Shown here: piece by piece, positions 22,673 through 33,876 of the stretch
Numbering within the stretch: the first letter of the stretch is position 1
Layout: each line of letters begins with the position of its first letter
Assembly: GCA_902774045.1 (NCBI GenBank)
Contig: CACYGW010000022.1
Span: 1 to 64,000, forward strand
Reading direction: 5' to 3'
DNA length: 64,000 nt
Source: an uncultured Bacteroidia bacterium
GTDB lineage: Bacteria; Bacteroidota; Bacteroidia; Bacteroidales; UBA932
Notes under the pieces: generated by a model
Databases searched by the model: none
Seen by the model: only the letters and a program-made list of their open reading frames with translations
Told to the model about the DNA's origin: nothing
Made by a program: the position numbers and the translations under genes

Positions 22673-23518
22673 ATGGCCGATAATTTCGAAGATTTCAAAC
22701 TAAAAGTTTTTGTCACGGTTGCCAGAAGAGGCAGCTTTACCATAGCCGCAAAAGAACTGGGAGTGACCCAACCGGCTATAAGCCAGAATATCAATTCCCT
22801 TGAAAAAAGCCTTGGAGTGCAGTTGTTTCAGAGGGTTAGGGGCGATGTTTCCCTGACCGACGCCGGGCGCGCCTTCCTGCGTTACGCCCTAGAGATTAAT
22901 TATTGGTACGATTCCGCCTCACGGATGTTCGGCGGTGAGGTTGGGTCCTCCGTGGTAAAGGTAAGAGTGGCAGCCGATTCCATATGCGCAGATTATATTT
23001 TGCCCAAGGCATTAGCAACTCTTATGGCCGGTAGGCCAGATATATTTTTTGAGGTTGTTCCCGTGGCCGATGGTGACGCGGACGCGTGCATTACAGCCTC
23101 TCCCGCGCCCGCGGCCATAGATTTTGAGGCAGAAGGCCAATTGGGCGGAACGTTAGAGGCGGCCGTGGCAGTATCGGCCCTGAATAAACAAAAGATTGTG
23201 GTGGACGGCCTGCACGTGTCCGGGAGTTTTGCCGCCTGGGAGGGCTATAGATCATTACTGCCTCCTGATTTATGCGCGCGAGTGAAATTCTTTTCCTATT
23301 CCGCAGAGCTGGTTAAAGAAGTTGTCTGTACATCCGGCCACCTGGTTGGTATCCTTCCCGCCCCGGCCGTAGCACGGGAGCTTTTGTCCGGAGAATTCCT
23401 AAGCCTGCCTCTCAGCCTTCCGGAACTGTCTATGGACATTCATTTTGTGGCCAGCCCCGGGTTTGAGGGGAAAAATATTTACAAATTGCTTTTTGAAGCT
23501 GTTAAACAGGGAAGATAA
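22673..23518 (+). CDS. LysR-family transcriptional regulator
   Basis: This 281-residue protein has an N-terminal winged helix-turn-helix (about 6-65; GSFTIAAKELGVTQPAISQNINSLE-type recognition region at about 21-45) and a C-terminal periplasmic-binding-like effector domain (about 93-280). Effector and targets are unknown. Position gives two candidates: the divergent M16 peptidase and the susCD units that begin about 250 bp downstream on the same strand. LysR proteins are less common in Bacteroidales than AraC or hybrid two-component regulators. Confidence 0.92.
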   Translation: MADNFEDFKLKVFVTVARRGSFTIAAKELGVTQPAISQNINSLEKSLGVQLFQRVRGDVSLTDAGRAFLRYALEINYWYDSASRMFGGEVGSSVVKVRVAADSICADYILPKALATLMAGRPDIFFEVVPVADGDADACITASPAPAAIDFEAEGQLGGTLEAAVAVSALNKQKIVVDGLHVSGSFAAWEGYRSLLPPDLCARVKFFSYSAELVKEVVCTSGHLVGILPAPAVARELLSGEFLSLPLSLPELSMDIHFVASPGFEGKNIYKLLFEAVKQGR

Positions 23519-23583: not shown

Positions 23584-23668
23584 ATTAAAACATTTTAGTC
23601 GTTGTAAAAAATAATCCATAAACGTTTTATAAGACTGAAAATAAGGCATTTACGGCGACAAAATTTAT

Positions 23669-23699
23669 TTTGAAAATTGAAATAAAAGTCTTTACTTTG
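23669..23699 (+). promoter_or_regulatory. Promoter of first susC-susD unit
   Basis: TTTG (23669-23672), a 19-nt spacer and TTACTTTG (23692-23699) match the Bacteroidota promoter (one mismatch in the -7 box). The same arrangement is kept at the second unit. A leader of about 105 nt follows. Confidence 0.7.
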
Positions 23700-23753
23700 C
23701 GACCAAAATTCGCTTCAGATATACCAAAAAAGGGGGTTCTGAAGAGCGTTTAA

Positions 23754-23778
23754 CCGGGCTAATTGTTTGATAGTCCGG
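23754..23778 (+). ncRNA. Leader hairpin of first susC mRNA
   Basis: An 8-bp stem CCGGGCTA / TAGTCCGG (one G-T pair) encloses the 9-nt loop ATTGTTTGA, 33 nt before the susC ATG. The second susC has the same loop with one change on a stem of different sequence. The loop AATTG is complementary to CAATT just 3' of the stem, so a small pseudoknot is possible. Confidence 0.6.
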
Positions 23779-23811
23779 CAATTGTTCAATTTTATATTAA
23801 AGTTTAACACT

Positions 23812-26800
23812 ATGAAAAACTTGAAGCTTGTTCTTGTGTGCTTCCTCATGACTGTAGCTTCAGTTGCATTCGCACAGAATGTTCAGATTACCGGTAAGGT
23901 TACCGACCAGGCCGGCAGTCCCGTAGCAGGTGCGTATGTTCTTGTTGAGGGCACAACTATCGGAGCCGTTACCGACACTCAGGGTAACTATTCCATTCAG
24001 GCTCCGAAGGAAAGTACACTTTGGTTCTCTTTCTTCGGAATGAAGACCAAGGCTGTACAGGTAGGCGACCAGAAGGTGATTGATGCAGTCCTGGAAGAGG
24101 ATGCAATGAATCTGGACGAGGTCGTTGTTACAGCTCAGGGCCTTACCCGTAAGCAGAAAGCTATCGGTTACTCTGCCCAGTCTCTTTCTACAGAGCAGAT
24201 TACCACAACTCATAGCTCCGATCTTGGCAACTCGCTTGCCGGTAAGATCGCCGGAGCACAGTTCTGGGGTGCTGGTGGCGCAACCTTTAACGAGGGCTCA
24301 ATCGTCCTCCGCGGTGCTACTTCTTACAGCGACGCTCAGGGTAACGCTCCTATTTATGTAGTAGATGGAACTATCGCCGCACAGGGCGCCATCAATATGG
24401 ACGACGTTGCAAGTATCAACGTCCTCAAGGGGCCTGCAGCTACCGCTCTTTACGGTTCCCGTGGAGCAAACGGTGCTGTTATCATTACTACCAAGAAGGC
24501 AGAAGAGGGAAGGTCAGTTGTTGAATTCTCCCACACTACTGCCGTAGAGTCCTACTACAACCACATTAAGCTCAACAAGCTCTATGGTGGTGGTTCAGGA
24601 ACCAGCGGACTTACCTCCGCAGCTTCCAAGGTTGCAGATCCTACTCTCGTAGACTGGACTTCCGCAGCTAACCTTATGGATGACCTTGGCGACGGTACCT
24701 ACGCAATGGATTACTATTCAGACGAGAACTGGGGTCCCCGTTACGATGGTACCACCCTTGTACGTTCCGCTCTCTCCTGGGATCCTACATCTCCTTACTA
24801 CGGCAAGGCAGAAACCTGGAAGGCTCGCCTTGACCTTGGCGACCTTGCACGCAACGCCTGGACAAATACCACCAACGTGGCTTTCTCCAAGTCCGTTAAG
24901 GGAATGAGCACCCGCGTTTCCTTCACCAACGTAGACAGGCAGGGTGTTATGTACAACTCCAAGGCTGTACGTCGTTCATTCAGTATCGCAACTACCCTTA
25001 AGCCTGCAAGCTGGCTTAACGCAGACTTCAGCTACCGTTATCGTTATCGTCTTAACAAGAACGCCGCAATCGAAGGTTACAGCGCAGAAGGTAACGTTAT
25101 CTGCGACTTCACCCAGTGGGGTCACACCAACGTAGACATTTCCCAGTACAAAGATTACAAGAGGGCAGACGGTACCTGGCGTACATGGAACATCCACTCT
25201 ACGGATGATCTTTCCGCCGAGTTCCACGACAACCCCTATGCAACTCTTGACAACTACAACTCCTGGGCAGTAAACAACTATCACCTCCTTTCCGGTGATA
25301 TCTATGCAAACCTCCCTTATAATATTAAGGTAGGTGCCCGTATCAACAATTATATCAACGCCCGTCAGTATGAGGAAAAGCACGGAACCGGTTCCATCAA
25401 CTGGGATTCCAGCTTCCGTACATACCACGTTCAGGACAATGACCTCACCATCCAGGGTTATGCTACCTGGGGTGATCAGTTCGTAGACGGCAGGCTTTCT
25501 GTAGAGGCTGCAGCTTTCGCAGAGACCCGTCAGTACGACTACAAGTACCTGAACAGCTACACCAACGGCGGTCTTAACGTAATTGATTTCTTTAACCTCG
25601 CTGCTTCTGCAAGCACTTACGGAACCAACAACTCCGAGACTCATTTCAAGACAAGATCATTCTTTGCCAATGCAACCATCGGCTGGGACGACCTTGTATA
25701 TGTTGATGGTTCTGTTCGTTACGACCTTGATTCCCGTCTCCCCAAGGATAACAATGGTTATCTCTACGGCGGCGCATCTGTATCATTGATGGCAAGCAAG
25801 CTTATCGACGCTCCCTGGCTTGACTTCTGGAAAGTTCGTGCTTCATTGGCACAGGTTGGTTCAACCATCGGCGCTTACCAGATTGATCCTACCTATACCG
25901 TAGGTACCAAGAAGAATGGCCAGACCACTATGTATGAGCCTTCTACCCTTAAGAATCAGAACGTTAAGCCTACCATCTCTACCTCTTACGAGATTGGTAC
26001 TGAGTTCAAGCTCTTCAAGAATCGCCTCTGGGGTGATATCAACCTTTACCGCAAAGACACCAAGAACGACATCATCGATGCAAACGTTCTTCCTCAGGCA
26101 GGTTATGCTTACCGCAAGGTAAATGCAGGTCTGGTTCGCAACCAGGGTATTGAGATTATGCTTGGCGGTACTCCTGTAAGCACAAAGGATGTTACCTGGT
26201 CTATCTCTGCAAACTTTGCAAAGAACAATAACAAACTTGTAGAACTTACTCCTGATCAGAACGAGTACACCATCTATTGGACCCGTTTCTATGATGCATG
26301 GTACAACAAGGCAGTTGCCGGCAAGCCTATCGGTGTTATTACGGCTGCTTCCCGTTTCGTTACTACCGAGGACGGCACTCCCGTTCTCCAGGCCGGTAAC
26401 GCTTCTTGGGGTGAGGTTCGCCCCGTTTGGGAGCGTGGCAAAGAGAAAGAGGTCGGCAATGTTCAGCCGGATTTCACCGGTGGTCTTTCTACCAGTCTCC
26501 GCGTTAAGAACGTAACCCTTTCCGCTTCTTTGGATTACCTCCACGGCGGCAAACTTGTTTCCTGGACCAATATGTGGGGAACCGGTTCCGGTCTCTTCGC
26601 TTCTACTGCAAAGGTTAACAAGAATGGTGTAAACGAGCGTGAGCCCGTAGCTGTTGGCGGTGGTGTTTACCTCGAGGGTGTAGATGCAGACGGCAATCCT
26701 ATTTCCGGTTTCTGCGATGCTTACAATTACTATCATTATAAGGCATACTACAACGCAGAAGGTTGGGTATTTGACCGCAGTTATGTAAAACTTCGCGAGG

Positions 26801-27021
26801 TTTCCGTTAAGTATGATATCCCCGCAAAGGTTCTCGCCAAGCTCGGTATTGGTCTAAGCAAGGCCAGCATCTCTGCTGTAGCTACCAATCCTTGGCTTAT
26901 CTATTCCGCCTGCCCTAACCTTGATCCTTCAGAAATTGCAGGCGTAGAGTACAACTATCTTGAAGGTGGTCAGGCCATGTCTACCCGTAGTTTTGGTCTC
27001 ACACTCAGCGTAACATTCTAA
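23812..27021 (+). CDS. SusC/RagA-family TonB-linked outer-membrane transporter (copy 1)
   Basis: This 1069-residue protein imports oligosaccharides or other large nutrients across the outer membrane with a SusD lid. In order it has a signal peptide (1-21, ending FAQ), a carboxypeptidase-regulatory-like domain (about 24-105), a TonB-box-like DEVVVTAQG, a plug (about 115-235) with LKGPAATALYGSRGANGAVI, and a long beta-barrel ending in Phe. The start at 23812 is chosen over 23767 because it gives a clean signal peptide and matches copy 2, and the longer frame would begin inside the leader hairpin. susD follows after 17 nt. Copy 2 (29060-32269) is the same length and highly similar. Substrate is unknown. 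Confidence 0.95.
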   Translation: MKNLKLVLVCFLMTVASVAFAQNVQITGKVTDQAGSPVAGAYVLVEGTTIGAVTDTQGNYSIQAPKESTLWFSFFGMKTKAVQVGDQKVIDAVLEEDAMNLDEVVVTAQGLTRKQKAIGYSAQSLSTEQITTTHSSDLGNSLAGKIAGAQFWGAGGATFNEGSIVLRGATSYSDAQGNAPIYVVDGTIAAQGAINMDDVASINVLKGPAATALYGSRGANGAVIITTKKAEEGRSVVEFSHTTAVESYYNHIKLNKLYGGGSGTSGLTSAASKVADPTLVDWTSAANLMDDLGDGTYAMDYYSDENWGPRYDGTTLVRSALSWDPTSPYYGKAETWKARLDLGDLARNAWTNTTNVAFSKSVKGMSTRVSFTNVDRQGVMYNSKAVRRSFSIATTLKPASWLNADFSYRYRYRLNKNAAIEGYSAEGNVICDFTQWGHTNVDISQYKDYKRADGTWRTWNIHSTDDLSAEFHDNPYATLDNYNSWAVNNYHLLSGDIYANLPYNIKVGARINNYINARQYEEKHGTGSINWDSSFRTYHVQDNDLTIQGYATWGDQFVDGRLSVEAAAFAETRQYDYKYLNSYTNGGLNVIDFFNLAASASTYGTNNSETHFKTRSFFANATIGWDDLVYVDGSVRYDLDSRLPKDNNGYLYGGASVSLMASKLIDAPWLDFWKVRASLAQVGSTIGAYQIDPTYTVGTKKNGQTTMYEPSTLKNQNVKPTISTSYEIGTEFKLFKNRLWGDINLYRKDTKNDIIDANVLPQAGYAYRKVNAGLVRNQGIEIMLGGTPVSTKDVTWSISANFAKNNNKLVELTPDQNEYTIYWTRFYDAWYNKAVAGKPIGVITAASRFVTTEDGTPVLQAGNASWGEVRPVWERGKEKEVGNVQPDFTGGLSTSLRVKNVTLSASLDYLHGGKLVSWTNMWGTGSGLFASTAKVNKNGVNEREPVAVGGGVYLEGVDADGNPISGFCDAYNYYHYKAYYNAEGWVFDRSYVKLREVSVKYDIPAKVLAKLGIGLSKASISAVATNPWLIYSACPNLDPSEIAGVEYNYLEGGQAMSTRSFGLTLSVTF

Positions 27022-27038
27022 TTCAGGGAGGATAAAAT

Positions 27039-28634
27039 ATGAAAAAGTTATATAGCATTTTGCTTTCCGCAGTAGCTGCATCAATGTTGTTCACAGCTTG
27101 CGATCCTTCTGACTTTGGTGATATCAACAAGGACCCGAACAACCCTTCGACTCCTTTCACTACATATCTCTTCACCAATGCTTGTACTTACGTACCTTAC
27201 TTCGTGCTTGGTAACGCTACCAACGGTTACGACCCTTGGCAGCAGGAGTGGGCAGGTTATCTTTCAGAGTCCAAGAACAACCAGTACGGTCCTCTTGGTA
27301 CTACCGCTCAGTACTCCACAGTAGGTACTATCTATCTTTATGCTCTCCGTAACCTCAACCAGATTATCGAGCTTAACGAGGATGAGGCTACCAGCACCCA
27401 GTCCTACGTTGGTATCCTTGGTGATACCGGCAATCAGCTTGGCGCTGCCAAGACTCTCTCTGCCTATTACTATATGTCCCTTACCGACATAGTAGGCCCT
27501 ATCGTCCTTTCACAGGCATTCAAAGGCAAGACAGAGGACAACTGGACACCCGAATACGACTCACAGGAAAGCGTATATGAGCAGCTTGACCAGATTCTTA
27601 AAGAGGCTTATGCTCAGTTCGACGAGGCTGGTTCACTTGACGGCGCTGCCGACGTTCTTTATGGCGGTGACATTGCCAAGTGGAAGAAACTCAATGCTTC
27701 TCTCCGTATGCTCCTTGCTATCAAACTTTCCGACGTAGCTCCCGAGGTTGGTAAAGCCCGCTTTGCCGCTGCCTATGCAGACGGTGGTATGGATTCTGTT
27801 GACGATGGTCTCTACTACACTTATGACGACCTTACCTGGAACCGCCTTTACTATTGGGTATCTCCCGACTATTCAGGCGCCGGCTTCAACGCTGTTCCTA
27901 ATATGTTCATTGTAGAGGCTATGAAGGTGCGCAAGGATAACCGTATGTGGTCTTATTTCGATATCGAGGGTTACCGTGGCGAGCGTAAGGAATCTATATT
28001 CCCTCGCGACCAGTACACCTCTTTCTACGGTGTTCCTTTTGGTCTTGCAAGCAACGACGCTGTTAATGCCTGGACAAACTGCTGCGCATCTATCAACAGC
28101 AGCCTCCTTGGTATGGATGCTACCATTCCGGTTATCCCTACGGCCCGTGTTCTTCTTACCGAGGCCGAGGCTGCATTCCGCGGATGGATAAGCGCAGATG
28201 CCCAGACTCTTTACGAGGCAGGCGTAGCCGCTTCCTTCGAGCAGTGGGGTGCCAACGGCGTTACCGATTACCTTGCAGATCCTATCAACGCATACGATGC
28301 ATCCAATGGTCTTGAGCTTATCGCTACCCAGAGGTGGATTGCTTCTTATATGTCCGACGGTGTAGAGGCCTGGGCTGACTGGCGTCGTCTGGACATCCCT
28401 AAGATGCCCGTAGGTCCTGGTGCCAAGGAGCTTGGAAACAACCACTATCCTTATCGTCTTGGTTACTACTCAGACTACGATATCGCTTACAACTACGACA
28501 ACTACCTTAAGGCAGTTGCTATGCTCCGCGGAGCAAAGGACGATGTCAACAGCCGTCTGTGGTGGGATGTTGCAGACAACGAGGAAGGTGTTCTCACAGC
28601 AGAGCAGTGCGTTCCTTCAGTTGATATCCCTTAA
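27039..28634 (+). CDS. SusD/RagB-family nutrient-binding lipoprotein (copy 1)
   Basis: This 531-residue outer-membrane lipoprotein is the lid and binding partner of the adjacent SusC. The lipobox LFTAC places the lipidated Cys at 21; what follows (DPSDFGDINKDPNNPS) is typical of the SusD-like subgroup that begins 'INxDPNNP'. Its helical TPR-like SusD/RagB core fills the rest. It follows susC with a GGAGG before its ATG and is ended by a strong terminator. Tandem copy: 32287-33876. Confidence 0.94.
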   Translation: MKKLYSILLSAVAASMLFTACDPSDFGDINKDPNNPSTPFTTYLFTNACTYVPYFVLGNATNGYDPWQQEWAGYLSESKNNQYGPLGTTAQYSTVGTIYLYALRNLNQIIELNEDEATSTQSYVGILGDTGNQLGAAKTLSAYYYMSLTDIVGPIVLSQAFKGKTEDNWTPEYDSQESVYEQLDQILKEAYAQFDEAGSLDGAADVLYGGDIAKWKKLNASLRMLLAIKLSDVAPEVGKARFAAAYADGGMDSVDDGLYYTYDDLTWNRLYYWVSPDYSGAGFNAVPNMFIVEAMKVRKDNRMWSYFDIEGYRGERKESIFPRDQYTSFYGVPFGLASNDAVNAWTNCCASINSSLLGMDATIPVIPTARVLLTEAEAAFRGWISADAQTLYEAGVAASFEQWGANGVTDYLADPINAYDASNGLELIATQRWIASYMSDGVEAWADWRRLDIPKMPVGPGAKELGNNHYPYRLGYYSDYDIAYNYDNYLKAVAMLRGAKDDVNSRLWWDVADNEEGVLTAEQCVPSVDIP

Positions 28635-28656
28635 GAGTAAATTCTGAGTTTATTAT

Positions 28657-28696
28657 AAAGAGGCCGACTCATTTTTGAGCCGGCCTCTTTTTTTTA
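28657..28696 (+). terminator. Terminator after first susD
   Basis: A 14-bp stem AAAGAGGCCGACTC / GAGCCGGCCTCTTT (with a mismatch) and a 6-nt loop is followed by eight or more T. It isolates the first susCD unit from the second, so each seems to be transcribed separately. Confidence 0.92.
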
Positions 28697-28784
28697 TGTC
28701 CGGCCCGGGTCTTTACGTAAGTGCCTGGGCCGGTTGGTTTTAGGTGTCTTGAAACGGGAATATAAACAAATGCATAAATAAACC

Positions 28785-28797
28785 TTACAATCCGTAA
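28785..28797. promoter_or_regulatory. Palindrome upstream of second susC
   Basis: TTACA-ATC-CGTAA is an imperfect 5-bp inverted repeat resembling the one before the first susC, about 140 nt upstream of the promoter. A further TTACAATC occurs shortly after. The remainder of 28700-28910 holds no gene. Confidence 0.3.
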
Positions 28798-28916
28798 TAG
28801 TTTCATATCTAAATACTTACAATCTTGAAGTAAAAAAATGAAAAATTTCTTTATAAATTTGCGGCAAAATGCATTAAGTGGCTGATAATAAGGTAGTTAG
28901 GCACATAAGAATAAAT

Positions 28917-28947
28917 TTTGAAAATTGAAATTAAAATCTTTACTTTG
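28917..28947 (+). promoter_or_regulatory. Promoter of second susC-susD unit
   Basis: TTTG (28917-28920), a 19-nt spacer and TTACTTTG (28940-28947) are identical in boxes and spacing to the first unit. The surrounding sequence is also closely similar, so the promoter was part of the duplication. Confidence 0.7.
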
Positions 28948-29001
28948 TAAGCGTAAGCCACTTTATATGCGCCCCAAATGGCGTTTTTTGAGGCGGTTTA
29001 A

Positions 29002-29024
29002 CAGACTAATTGTATGATAGTCTG
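29002..29024 (+). ncRNA. Leader hairpin of second susC mRNA
   Basis: A perfect 7-bp stem CAGACTA / TAGTCTG encloses the 9-nt loop ATTGTATGA, 35 nt before the ATG. Compared with copy 1, stem bases change on both sides so pairing is kept. Confidence 0.6.
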
Positions 29025-29059
29025 GCAATTGTTTAATTTTAGATTAAAGTTTAACACTC

Positions 29060-32000
29060 ATGAAAAACTTGAAGCTTGTTCTTGTGTGCTTCCTCATGAC
29101 TGTGGCATCAGTTGCGTTCGCGCAGAATGTCCAGATTACCGGTAAGGTTACCGACCAGTCCGGCAATCCTGTAGTAGGTGCGTATGTTGTCGTTGAGGGC
29201 ACAACTACCGGAGCCGTTACCGACTCTCAGGGTAACTATTCTATTTCGGCTCCAAGGGAAAGTATGCTTTGGTTCTCTTTCTTTGGAATGAAGACCAAGG
29301 ACGTACAAATAGGCGACCAGACAGTGATTGACGTTGTCCTGGAGGACGATGCAATGAATCTGGACGAGGTCGTTGTTACAGCTCAGGGGCTTACCCGTAA
29401 GCAGAAGGCTATCGGTTACTCTGCCCAGTCTCTTTCTACCGAGCAGATTACCACAACTCATAGCTCCGAACTCGGCAACTCTCTTGCCGGTAAGATCGCA
29501 GGAGCGCAGTTCTGGGGTGCGGGCGGTTCTACCTTTAACGAGGGCTCAATCGTCCTTCGTGGAGCTACTTCTTACAGCGATGCAAAGGGTAATGCTCCTA
29601 TCTACGTAGTAGATGGAACAGTTACCGAACAGGGTGCCATCAATATGGACGATGTTGCAAGCATCAACGTCCTCAAGGGGCCTGCAGCTACCGCTCTTTA
29701 CGGTTCCCGTGGAGCAAACGGTGCCGTTATCGTTACTACCAAGAAGGCAGAGGAAGGAAGGTCCGTTATAGAATTCTCCCACACTACTGCCGTAGAATCT
29801 TACTACAATCACATTAAGCTCAACAACCTCTATGGCGGTGGTTCACTGACCTCCGGACTTAGCGCCCTGGCTGCCGATGTGACGGATCCTACTTCGATAG
29901 ACTGGACTTCTGCTGCCTATCTCTTCGAGGACCTTGGCGACGGTACCTACGCAATGGATTACTATTCAGACGAGAACTGGGGTCCCCGTTACGATGGCAC
30001 CACCCTTGTACGTTCCGCTCTCTCCTGGGATCCTACATCTCCTTACTACGGCAAGGCAGAAACCTGGAAGGCTCGCCTTAACCTTAGCGACCTTGCACGC
30101 AACGCATGGACAAATACCACCAACGTGGCTTTCTCAAAGTCCGTAAAGGGAATGAGTACCCGTATATCATTTACCAATGTGGATAAGCAGGGTGTTATGT
30201 ACAACTCTAAGGCTGTACGTCGTTCATTCAGTATAGCTTCTACATTTAAGCCCGTAAGCTGGCTTAACGCAGACTTCAGCTACCGCTATCGTTACCGCCT
30301 TAACAAAAATGGTGCAAAAGAAGGCTACAGCGCAGAAGGTAACGTTCTTTGCGAATTTACCCAATGGGGCCAGACCAACGTGGATATTTCCCAGTACAAG
30401 GATTACAAGAGACCGGATGGCTCCTGGCGTTCCTGGAATATCAAAAGCCCCACGGATCTTGCTGCAAACTTTCACGATAACCCCTACGCAACCCTTGACA
30501 ACTACAATTCCTGGTCAACCTACAACTATCACCTCATTGCGGCTGATGTTTACGCCAATCTCCCTTATAATATAAAGGTGGGAGCCAGGGTAAACAACTA
30601 TATCGATAATCGTCAGTACGAGGAAAAACACGGAACCGGTTCCATCAACTGGGATCCCAGCTTCCGTACATACCATGTCCAGAGCAATGACTTCACAATT
30701 CAGGGTTATGCTACCTGGGGCGGTCAGTTTGTCGATGACAGACTTTCCGTAGAGGCTGCAGCTTTTGCAGAGACACGTCAGTATGACTATAAGTACCTGA
30801 ACAGCTATACCAACGGAGGTCTTAACGTAATTGATTTCTATAACCTTGCTGCTTCTGCAAGCACTTACGGAACCAATAACGAAGAAAAACACTTCAAGAC
30901 AAGGTCATTCTTTGGCAACGCAACCATTGGCTGGGACGACTTTGTATATGTTGATGGTTCTCTCCGTTACGACTTAGACTCCCGCCTGCCTAGTAACAAC
31001 AACGGCTATCTCTACGGTGGAGCCTCGGTATCATTCATGCTAAGCAAACTTATAAATGCTTCCTGGCTTGATTTCTGGAAGGTGCGCGCTTCAATGGCAC
31101 AGGTTGGTTCAACCATCGATGCGTACCAGATATATCCTACCTATACAGTAGGAACCAAGAAGAACGGCCAGACAACAATGTATGAGCCTTCTACCCTTAA
31201 GAACGAGAATGTTAAGCCTACCATCTCCACTTCTTACGAGGTTGGTACCGAGTTTAAGCTCTTTAAGAATCGCCTATGGGGTGATATCAACCTTTACCGC
31301 AAGGATACCAAGAACGATATCATAGATGCCAACGTTCTTCCCCAGTCCGGTTATGCTTACCGCAAGGTAAATGCCGGTCTGGTTCGTAACCAGGGTATCG
31401 AGATTATGCTCGGCGGTACTCCTGTAAACACAAAGGATGTTACCTGGGCAATTTCTGCAAACTTTGCAAGTAACAAGAATAAACTTGTAGAACTTACTCC
31501 TGACCAGAACGAGTACACCATCTACTGGGCTCGTTTCTACTATGCCTGGTACAACAAGGCTATAGCCGGCAAGCCTATCGGCGTAATTTCTTCTGCGGCT
31601 CGCTGGGCCAAGACAGAGGACGGCACTCCCATCCTTCAGGCCGGTAACTCAACCTGGGGTGAGGTACGTCCCGTATACGATCTTGGAACTGAGCAGGAAG
31701 TTGGCAATGTTCAGCCTGACTTCACCGGTGGCCTTTCTACCAGTCTTCGCGTTAAGAATGTAACTTTCTCTGCATCTTTGGATTACCTCAAGGGCGGCAA
31801 GCTAATTTCTTGGACAAATATGTGGGGAACCGGTTCAGGTCTTTTTGCTTCAACGGCAGAGGTTAACAACCGTGGCGTAAATGTCCGTGAGCCAGTTGCT
31901 GTTGGCGGTGGCGTTTATATGGAAGGCGTGGATGAAGAAGGTAAACCTATGTCCGGTTACGTAGATGCTTATCAGTACTATCATGCCAAGGCAAACTACG

Positions 32001-32269
32001 ACTGCGACTCCTGGGCTTTTGACCGTTCTTACGTAAAACTTCGTGAAGTTTCCATTAAGTACGACATTCCTGCCAAGGTGCTCGCCAAACTTGGTGTTGG
32101 CCTCTCCAGAGCCAGCATCTCTGCTGTAGCCACCAATCCTTGGCTTATCTATTCTGCCTGCCCTAACCTTGATCCTTCAGAAATTGCAGGCGTAGAGTAC
32201 AACTATCTTGAGGGTGGTCAGGCCATGTCTACCCGTAGTTTTGGTCTTACACTCAGTGTAACATTCTAA
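29060..32269 (+). CDS. SusC/RagA-family TonB-linked outer-membrane transporter (copy 2)
   Basis: Same domain order and length (1069 residues) as copy 1: signal peptide, carboxypeptidase-regulatory-like domain, plug, barrel. N-terminus, plug and the last 60 or so residues are nearly identical to copy 1. Differences cluster in barrel parts likely to face the substrate, for example after residue 255 and in the 420-450 and 850-900 regions. This suggests a paralogue with related but not identical substrate. susD follows after 17 nt. Confidence 0.95.
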   Translation: MKNLKLVLVCFLMTVASVAFAQNVQITGKVTDQSGNPVVGAYVVVEGTTTGAVTDSQGNYSISAPRESMLWFSFFGMKTKDVQIGDQTVIDVVLEDDAMNLDEVVVTAQGLTRKQKAIGYSAQSLSTEQITTTHSSELGNSLAGKIAGAQFWGAGGSTFNEGSIVLRGATSYSDAKGNAPIYVVDGTVTEQGAINMDDVASINVLKGPAATALYGSRGANGAVIVTTKKAEEGRSVIEFSHTTAVESYYNHIKLNNLYGGGSLTSGLSALAADVTDPTSIDWTSAAYLFEDLGDGTYAMDYYSDENWGPRYDGTTLVRSALSWDPTSPYYGKAETWKARLNLSDLARNAWTNTTNVAFSKSVKGMSTRISFTNVDKQGVMYNSKAVRRSFSIASTFKPVSWLNADFSYRYRYRLNKNGAKEGYSAEGNVLCEFTQWGQTNVDISQYKDYKRPDGSWRSWNIKSPTDLAANFHDNPYATLDNYNSWSTYNYHLIAADVYANLPYNIKVGARVNNYIDNRQYEEKHGTGSINWDPSFRTYHVQSNDFTIQGYATWGGQFVDDRLSVEAAAFAETRQYDYKYLNSYTNGGLNVIDFYNLAASASTYGTNNEEKHFKTRSFFGNATIGWDDFVYVDGSLRYDLDSRLPSNNNGYLYGGASVSFMLSKLINASWLDFWKVRASMAQVGSTIDAYQIYPTYTVGTKKNGQTTMYEPSTLKNENVKPTISTSYEVGTEFKLFKNRLWGDINLYRKDTKNDIIDANVLPQSGYAYRKVNAGLVRNQGIEIMLGGTPVNTKDVTWAISANFASNKNKLVELTPDQNEYTIYWARFYYAWYNKAIAGKPIGVISSAARWAKTEDGTPILQAGNSTWGEVRPVYDLGTEQEVGNVQPDFTGGLSTSLRVKNVTFSASLDYLKGGKLISWTNMWGTGSGLFASTAEVNNRGVNVREPVAVGGGVYMEGVDEEGKPMSGYVDAYQYYHAKANYDCDSWAFDRSYVKLREVSIKYDIPAKVLAKLGVGLSRASISAVATNPWLIYSACPNLDPSEIAGVEYNYLEGGQAMSTRSFGLTLSVTF

Positions 32270-32286
32270 TTTAAGGAGGATAAAAT

Positions 32287-33876
32287 ATGAAAAAGTTATA
32301 CAGCATTTTGCTTTCCGCAGTAGCTGCGTCGTTAATGTTAACAGCTTGCGATCCTTCTGATTTTGGTGATATAAACAAGGATCCGAACAACCCTTCGACT
32401 CCTTTCACTACGTATATTTTTACCGGTGCTTGTACTTATGTGCCTTACTTTGTACTTGGCAACGCAGAAAACGGCTATGATCCCTGGCAGCAGGAGTGGC
32501 CCGGTTATATTTCAGAGTCCAAGAACAATCAGTACGGTCCTCTTTCAACTACGGAGGAGTATACAAACGTTGGTACAATTTATCTAAATGCTATCCGTAA
32601 TCTGGACCAGATTATTAAACTTAACGAGGACGAGGCTACAAAGGATGAGTCTTATGTGCGTATTCTGGGCGATACAAACAACCAGATTGCAGTTGCCAAG
32701 ACTCTATCTGCTTTCTTCTATATGTCCGTTACCGATATCGTAGGCCCTATCGTTCTTTCAGAGGTATTCCAGGGTAAATCGGATGACAACTGGACTCCTG
32801 TGTACGATTCTCAGGAATTTGTTTACGAGCAGTTGGACCAGATTCTTAAGGATGCTTATTCTCAGTTTGACGAAGACGGTGTGTTTGATTCTGCTGCCGA
32901 CGATCTTTACAAGGGCGATATCGCAAAGTGGAAGAAGTTCAATGCGTCTCTGCGTATGCTTCTTGCCATAAAACTCAGCGACGTTGCTCCCGAGTTGGGT
33001 AAAGCCCGTTTTGCAGCTGCTTACGCAGACGGCGGTATGGAAACTGTTGCCGATGGCTTCTATTATACTTATGACGATCTTACCTGGAACCGCCTGTACT
33101 ATTGGGTATCTCCCGATTATTCAGGTGCCGGCTTCAACGCAGTCCCTAATATGTTTATAGTAGAAGCTATGAAGGAGCGTGAGGATAACCGTATGTGGTC
33201 TTACTTTGACATAGAGGGCTACCGTGGCGAGCGTCCTGAGAAGTTCTTCCCGCGCGACAAGTACACCTCTTTCTACGGAGTTCCCTTCGGTCTTAAAAAC
33301 CTCGACGCTGTTAATGCCTGGACAAACTGCTGCGCATCTATCAACAGCAAGCTCCTTGCAATGGAAGCTACCATTCCGGTTATTCCCACCGCCCGAGTTC
33401 TTCTTACCCAGGCCGAGGCTGCATTTCGCGGATGGATCAGTGCAGACGCCAAGGCTCTTGACGAGGCAGGCGTAGCTGCTTCCTTTGAGCAGTGGGGCGC
33501 CAAAGGCGTTGAGGAGTATCTTCTTAAGGATATTAATGCTTACTCTGATGCTGACGGTCTTGAAAAGATTGCCATTCAGAGGTGGATTGCTTCTTATATG
33601 TCCGATGGTGTTGAGGCTTGGGCCGACTGGCGCCGACTTGATATCCCCAAGATGCCTGTAGGCCCTGGTGCATATGATAACGGCAAGACTCACTATCCTT
33701 ATCGTCTGCGTTTCTATACTGACTACGACGTTGCTTACAACTACGACAACTACATTAAGGCAGTTGCCTTGCTCAATGGTGGAGTAGATGATTGCAACAG
33801 CCGTCTTTGGTGGGACGTTGCAGACAATGAGGAAGGCGTTCTCACAACAGAGCAGTGCACTCCTCCAAAATTTTAA
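32287..33876 (+). CDS. SusD/RagB-family nutrient-binding lipoprotein (copy 2)
   Basis: This 529-residue lipoprotein has its lipid Cys at 21 (lipobox LTAC) and the same SusD/RagB fold as copy 1. The first 40 residues and the C-terminal QRWIASYMSDGVEAWADWRR block are almost unchanged; mid-region loops differ more. A GGAGG precedes the ATG. It closes the second unit before a bidirectional terminator. There is no SusE/SusF-like gene, hydrolase or hybrid regulator near either pair. Confidence 0.94.
   Translation: MKKLYSILLSAVAASLMLTACDPSDFGDINKDPNNPSTPFTTYIFTGACTYVPYFVLGNAENGYDPWQQEWPGYISESKNNQYGPLSTTEEYTNVGTIYLNAIRNLDQIIKLNEDEATKDESYVRILGDTNNQIAVAKTLSAFFYMSVTDIVGPIVLSEVFQGKSDDNWTPVYDSQEFVYEQLDQILKDAYSQFDEDGVFDSAADDLYKGDIAKWKKFNASLRMLLAIKLSDVAPELGKARFAAAYADGGMETVADGFYYTYDDLTWNRLYYWVSPDYSGAGFNAVPNMFIVEAMKEREDNRMWSYFDIEGYRGERPEKFFPRDKYTSFYGVPFGLKNLDAVNAWTNCCASINSKLLAMEATIPVIPTARVLLTQAEAAFRGWISADAKALDEAGVAASFEQWGAKGVEEYLLKDINAYSDADGLEKIAIQRWIASYMSDGVEAWADWRRLDIPKMPVGPGAYDNGKTHYPYRLRFYTDYDVAYNYDNYIKAVALLNGGVDDCNSRLWWDVADNEEGVLTTEQCTPPKF

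Follow-up and report, generated by a model that had tools for sequence, protein, structure and literature searches.

Predicted hairpins in the 5' leaders of two tandem susCD operons in a Bacteroidales genome

The window, that is, the whole 64,000-nt stretch of DNA that was analysed, belongs to a Bacteroidales genome of 1.7 Mb that is 96%-complete; most of the closest named relatives are MAGs from the ruminant gut. It harbors two tandem susCD units (23812-28634 and 29060-33876), each with its own Bacteroidetes-type promoter, a leader of ~110 nt and an ATG. The features of both units are collected in Table 1. A gene for a LysR-family regulator adjoins susC copy 1 on the upstream side. Judging from the promoter motif, transcription of copy 1 is predicted to start a few bases 3' of it. 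A strong hairpin followed by a T tract lies 3' of susD copy 1. It was absent from the output of a simple terminator scan and is probably a terminator that divides the two units. Because of this element after the first susD, the second susCD unit probably has separate transcription.

Table 1. Positions of genes, promoters and predicted leader structures of the two susCD units in the window.
Feature	Position	Strand	Description
LysR-family regulator gene	22673-23518		
Promoter, copy 1	23669..23699	+	Bacteroidetes-type, TTTG ... TTTACTTTG; read from the sequence; conserved with copy 2
HP I, copy 1	23713..23744	+	CTTCAGA/TCTGAAG, near predicted 5' end; MFE and centroid fold
HP II, copy 1	23754..23778	+	CCGGGCTA 23754-23761, loop ATTGTTTGA 23762-23770, TAGTCCGG 23771-23778
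HP III / start-proximal A+T-rich box, copy 1	23783..23809	+	TGTT.AATTTTA-TAT-TAAAGTT.AACA
susC copy 1	23812..27021	+	1069 aa, TIGR04056
susD copy 1	27039..28634	+	PF12771 SusD-like_2
Strong hairpin and T tract 3' of susD copy 1	28660..28696	+	GAGGCCG...CCGGCCTCTTTTTTTT type; sequence reading
Promoter, copy 2	28917..28947	+	TTTG ... TTTACTTTG; read from the sequence; conserved with copy 1
HP I, copy 2	28954..29000	+	different sequence, same position as HP I of copy 1; fold
HP II, copy 2	29002..29024	+	CAGACTA 29002-29008, loop ATTGTATGA 29009-29017, TAGTCTG 29018-29024
HP III / start-proximal box, copy 2	29030..29056	+	
susC copy 2	29060..32269	+	1069 aa, 87% identity with copy 1 protein
susD copy 2	32287..33876	+	

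The two leaders share the same order of elements, promoter - HP I - HP II - HP III - ATG. HP II is located 33-35 nt 5' of the ATG, which is not part of the hairpin. Its predicted energy is -11.4 kcal/mol in copy 1 and -7.7 kcal/mol in copy 2, and the probability of the outer pair is ~0.99 in both. The loops of the two copies differ at a single base (conserved form, ATTGTWTGA), and CAATTGTT directly follows the stem on the 3' side in both copies. An earlier sequence-only reading had described HP II; its positions, stems and loops were correct base for base, and its statement that the loop and the 3' tract are conserved also held. Both susC genes have a stable predicted hairpin in their 5' leader, within a conserved block. 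The sequence of HP I is not conserved between the copies. In HP III, all 11 of the 11 pairs are invariant, and HP III is therefore uninformative on pairing.

The predicted structure of the leader was more stable than shuffled controls. Folded jointly (RNAalifold), the two leaders gave z -3.4 against column shuffles (4/500), and the part comprising HP II and HP III, a sub-region picked post hoc, gave z -4.0 (1/500). For single sequences, the value was z -1.7 for either leader with its start region. The leader (z -3.7) was more extreme than 8 of 8 coding windows of the susCD pair. A coarser test, with windows slid along the entire pair, ranked those of the leader 3rd and 8th of 90 and put a coding window (from 23946) first, ahead of the leader. 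These results suggested that folding of the leader is moderately beyond chance.

The sequence-only reading had further claimed that bases in the HP II stem were exchanged on both sides without loss of pairing, and had taken this as the mark of selected RNA structure. Seven pairs of HP II are common to both copies, and one of them did change on both sides (G-C/A-U). Another changed on one side only (G-U/A-U), the remaining five were identical, and an eighth pair (C-G) exists in copy 1 only. In simulations, three random substitutions in the stem retained at least seven pairs in 4-12% of trials, and a stem of at least seven pairs survived in 12-18% when four substitutions and a deletion were placed at random across the hairpin. 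A 5.1-kb alignment of the susCD copies contained 24 shared stems of at least seven pairs, and both-sided change was found in two of them, HP II and one at 23666-23684 in the untranscribed promoter. Because the second of these stems lies outside the transcript, 'covariation' of such a size arises by chance, and the covariation of HP II is not above background. Moreover, the SusC copies are more similar to each other than to the nearest orthologue, L043 (87% vs 80-81% identity), and they therefore appear to have split after the L043 lineage separated. Since the duplication appears later than this split, the two copies are unusable as independent witnesses, and a single compensatory pair between such recent paralogues does not carry the claim of selected structure. 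The case shows the weak proving power of two paralogous copies, in that one compensatory pair was equalled by a stem of the untranscribed promoter.

We searched for further occurrences of HP II in this genome and its relatives. The 34-base HP II pattern with at most 3 mismatches, on either strand, was found at no place in the genome beyond the two leaders. In a DNA search of 200 genus genomes with the leader, the promoter stretch alone matched outside the source genome. A covariance model of HP II and HP III, the start-proximal hairpin (model R1), matched only the source genome among 400 genus genomes, apart from one match elsewhere with E 0.028, and found nothing further in 40 relatives. The single outside match is located 3' of a metabolic gene (deoC-like) with no susC after it, and it was treated as chance. 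Because the motif is restricted to the source genome, a larger alignment of HP II is impossible. Compensatory changes in independent lineages, as expected of a covariation-supported cis-regulatory RNA, were not found: there are two paralogues with one double change, to which the 400 genus genomes and 40 relatives add no members.

The orthologous leaders were also compared. In L043, promoter and start box (AAAGTYTAACRCT) are retained, HP II is missing, and ~45 nt separate the promoter motif from the ATG. In the next orthologue, L020 (76% aa), the leader is longer, HP II is missing and no excess structure was detected (z -0.46). Both L043 and L020 carry the TTTACTTTG promoter motif and the 3' part of HP III (AAAGTYTAACRCT-ATG). 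As both are without HP II, the hairpin is dispensable in these sister species, and from its absence elsewhere it either arose on, or persists only in, the lineage of the source genome. More distant orthologues (44-76% aa) often have another hairpin, located 3' of the promoter and 5' of the start box (GGTAGTG..CACTATC, GATACA..TGTATC or ATAGT..ACTAT), and the leader of L093, an orthologue (66% aa) in a different genus of the same family, is unrelated. The idea that the susC leaders of this group are all unusually structured was unsupported: as a group, the orthologous leaders were not more structured than other window leaders (mean z -0.80 vs -1.14, p 0.31), and tests per clade lost their force because coding controls were just as extreme in clades B-E.

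It should be mentioned that a DNA palindrome, perfect or nearly so, lies between promoter and start in the leaders of L047, L049, L060 and L062 (TGTATCGATACA; TGTATTCGATACA in L062), together with an extra TGTATC half-site. This palindrome could be a transcription-factor site instead of an RNA hairpin.

We tentatively favor a constitutive and structural role for the leader, which would protect the susC mRNA with no signal-responsive switching. HP II would be part of a 5' untranslated leader of ~110 nt in two recently duplicated susCD operons, and this leader would fold into HP I at the 5' end, HP II, and HP III, a weak hairpin or box rich in A+T right before the ATG. The 5' hairpins may shield the mRNA of an abundant outer-membrane transporter from 5'-end-dependent decay and may stop the upstream part of the mRNA from interfering with the start region; we only infer this effect of the leader on expression. 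A structural role is consistent with the tolerance of HP II for G-U/A-U and GC/AU changes, G-U being disfavored in a DNA dyad, and with its single stable state, to which the alternatives are 5-9 kcal/mol weaker. The shared layout of both leaders, their joint fold and the R2 leader described below also speak for it; against it stand the orthologous leaders, not unusually structured as a group, the coding window that ranks ahead of the leader, and the lack of HP II in L043 and L020.

Neutral retention is nearly as likely as an mRNA-protecting leader. Here, HP II would be lineage-specific and functionless and would occur in both copies since the duplication is recent, the surrounding conserved block being maintained by the start region together with conversion between the copies. 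Its confinement to the source genome and absence from the nearest orthologues fit this explanation, as do the chance retention of a stem of at least seven pairs (4-18% over both simulations) and the location of the sole further 'covarying' stem outside the transcript, in the promoter. So does the coding sequence beside the leader block: in susC codons 1-150 (23812-24261 / 29060-29509), the synonymous difference between the copies is 0.13-0.15 vs an average of ~0.28 further down, which points to conversion of, or constraint on, the 5' end and is what conversion there would give. On the other side, the joint fold beats its shuffles, and the HP I stretch is far more diverged between the copies than HP II or the promoter, so that the conserved block is not a uniform tract.

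A control element at the DNA level was also considered, and it is the least probable of the explanations weighed here. The dyad, or ATTG-N13-CAAT over the loop and the 3' tract, would bind a repressor or the adjacent LysR-type regulator. LysR sites are often dyads, the site occurs genome-wide at these two promoters only, and the LysR-family gene immediately upstream is a possible local regulator of the duplicated operons. However, the site is ~55-80 nt 3' of the promoter motif, which is unusual for a LysR activator, and no LysR gene was seen beside the orthologues examined (neighboring ORFs read by eye). The half-sites also differ between the copies, and, read as a DNA dyad, the site of copy 1 contains a G-T mismatch.

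A better candidate for an RNA element than the HP II of the window is found elsewhere in the genus. A related susC subfamily whose signal peptide starts with MGKK or MSKK has a well-conserved leader in ~12 genus genomes (model R2). The R2 leader occupies ~113 nt before the ATG of MGKK-type susC in L051, L057, L063, L070-L079 and L088, and is more diverged in L055/L080 (MSKK). It consists of a GGG/CCC hairpin, a CCRGC/GCYGG hairpin with compensatory pairs, an AGATAGT/ACTATTT hairpin, and a palindromic box AAGTTTAA...TTTAAGCTT-ATG. Two pairs of its HP I vary, GC/GU/AU and CG/UG/UA. In the whole structure 99.2% of cells are paired, a value equalled by 12/500 shuffles, and slid controls showed no both-sided change. 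R2 had no match in Rfam, and its model did not match the window. The R2 and window leaders are alike in having a GC-rich hairpin, a second hairpin, and an A+T-rich or palindromic box or hairpin just 5' of the ATG. They differ in the sequence of both hairpins, with no sequence homology of R2 to HP II, and R2 recurs in ~12 genomes with compensatory pairs, whereas the window leader does not.

R2 makes a structured leader before susC plausible in this genus. In L082, L089-L092 and others of the same subfamily, the ATTAAGTTTAA..TTTAAGCTT-ATG box is kept and the upstream hairpins are missing. Because some susC copies have the start box alone, the upstream hairpins are not required in the MGKK/MSKK subfamily, and the start-proximal box, being present where they are absent, is the more general element. 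It is rather improbable that the susC mRNAs of the genus share one fast-evolving regulatory leader not yet described (two hairpins and a palindromic box next to the start), in which structure is kept and sequence is not and of which HP II and R2 would be lineage versions. If the leader were such a shared regulatory RNA, uncultured Bacteroidales of the rumen would control nutrient uptake through SusC at the RNA level, with no need of RbpB.

Finally, we consider regulated switching, which the sequence-only reading had proposed, noting also that the loop can pair with CAATT after the stem. A protein or small RNA would bind the loop or the CAATTGTT tract and control SusC translation or termination, and the near identity of loop and tract in both copies speaks for such a site. 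We regard this as unlikely. The loop/CAATTG pairing has a predicted energy of -2.4 kcal/mol in copy 1 and -2.8 kcal/mol in copy 2, which is 9.0 and 4.9 kcal/mol weaker, respectively, than HP II. Predicted accessibility of the start codon is unchanged with vs without HP I/II (0.45 vs 0.43; 0.38 vs 0.38). The weak alternative pairing and the unchanged start accessibility argue against a bistable switch: two exclusive folds of comparable energy that alter start access or termination, as in a bistable riboswitch or attenuator, were not found in these leaders. HP I of copy 2 includes a terminator-like inner GCGCC/GGCGT hairpin followed by TTTTT (28969-28990), which is not in copy 1. A terminator or attenuator was rejected, as this site exists in copy 2 alone, at chance frequency, and none is common to both copies. 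Neither leader matched Rfam at the gathering score; at a relaxed threshold, the only match was RF02859 in copy 2, with 19 bits vs a gathering score of 52, and it is not credible. A near-complement of the 34-nt HP II core, with 3 mismatches allowed, was found nowhere else in the genome.

A precedent for switching, and the one case described of RNA-level control over susC leaders, comes from Bacteroides thetaiotaomicron: several susC mRNAs are repressed there by FopS sRNAs, with the translation initiation region as their target and RbpB as their antagonist (PMC11697453). The likeness is post-transcriptional control at the 5' region of susC mRNAs. However, FopS is a trans-acting sRNA family that works by pairing with the translation initiation region, not via an upstream hairpin, whereas the window has an upstream cis hairpin. 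RRM_1 (PF00076, RbpB-type) gave 0 matches in this genome, and a Bacteroides positive control gave matches; FopS/RbpB regulation of the susC genes of the window was rejected because the RRM protein is absent from the genome. We conclude that HP II is real as a predicted hairpin, that the claim of covariation was overstated, and that the protein- or sRNA-binding switch is unsupported. All in all, HP II is fairly ordinary.

The open literature, to which the search was confined, yielded no description of a hairpin in a susC leader. For the favored role in mRNA protection, the type case of stabilizing 5' hairpins on abundant outer-membrane-protein mRNAs is the ompA leader of Escherichia coli. The ompA leader has no sequence relation to the window leader and comes from a distant phylum, and the window hairpins are predicted ones. 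In both, a long leader before an outer-membrane protein gene carries hairpins close to its 5' end.
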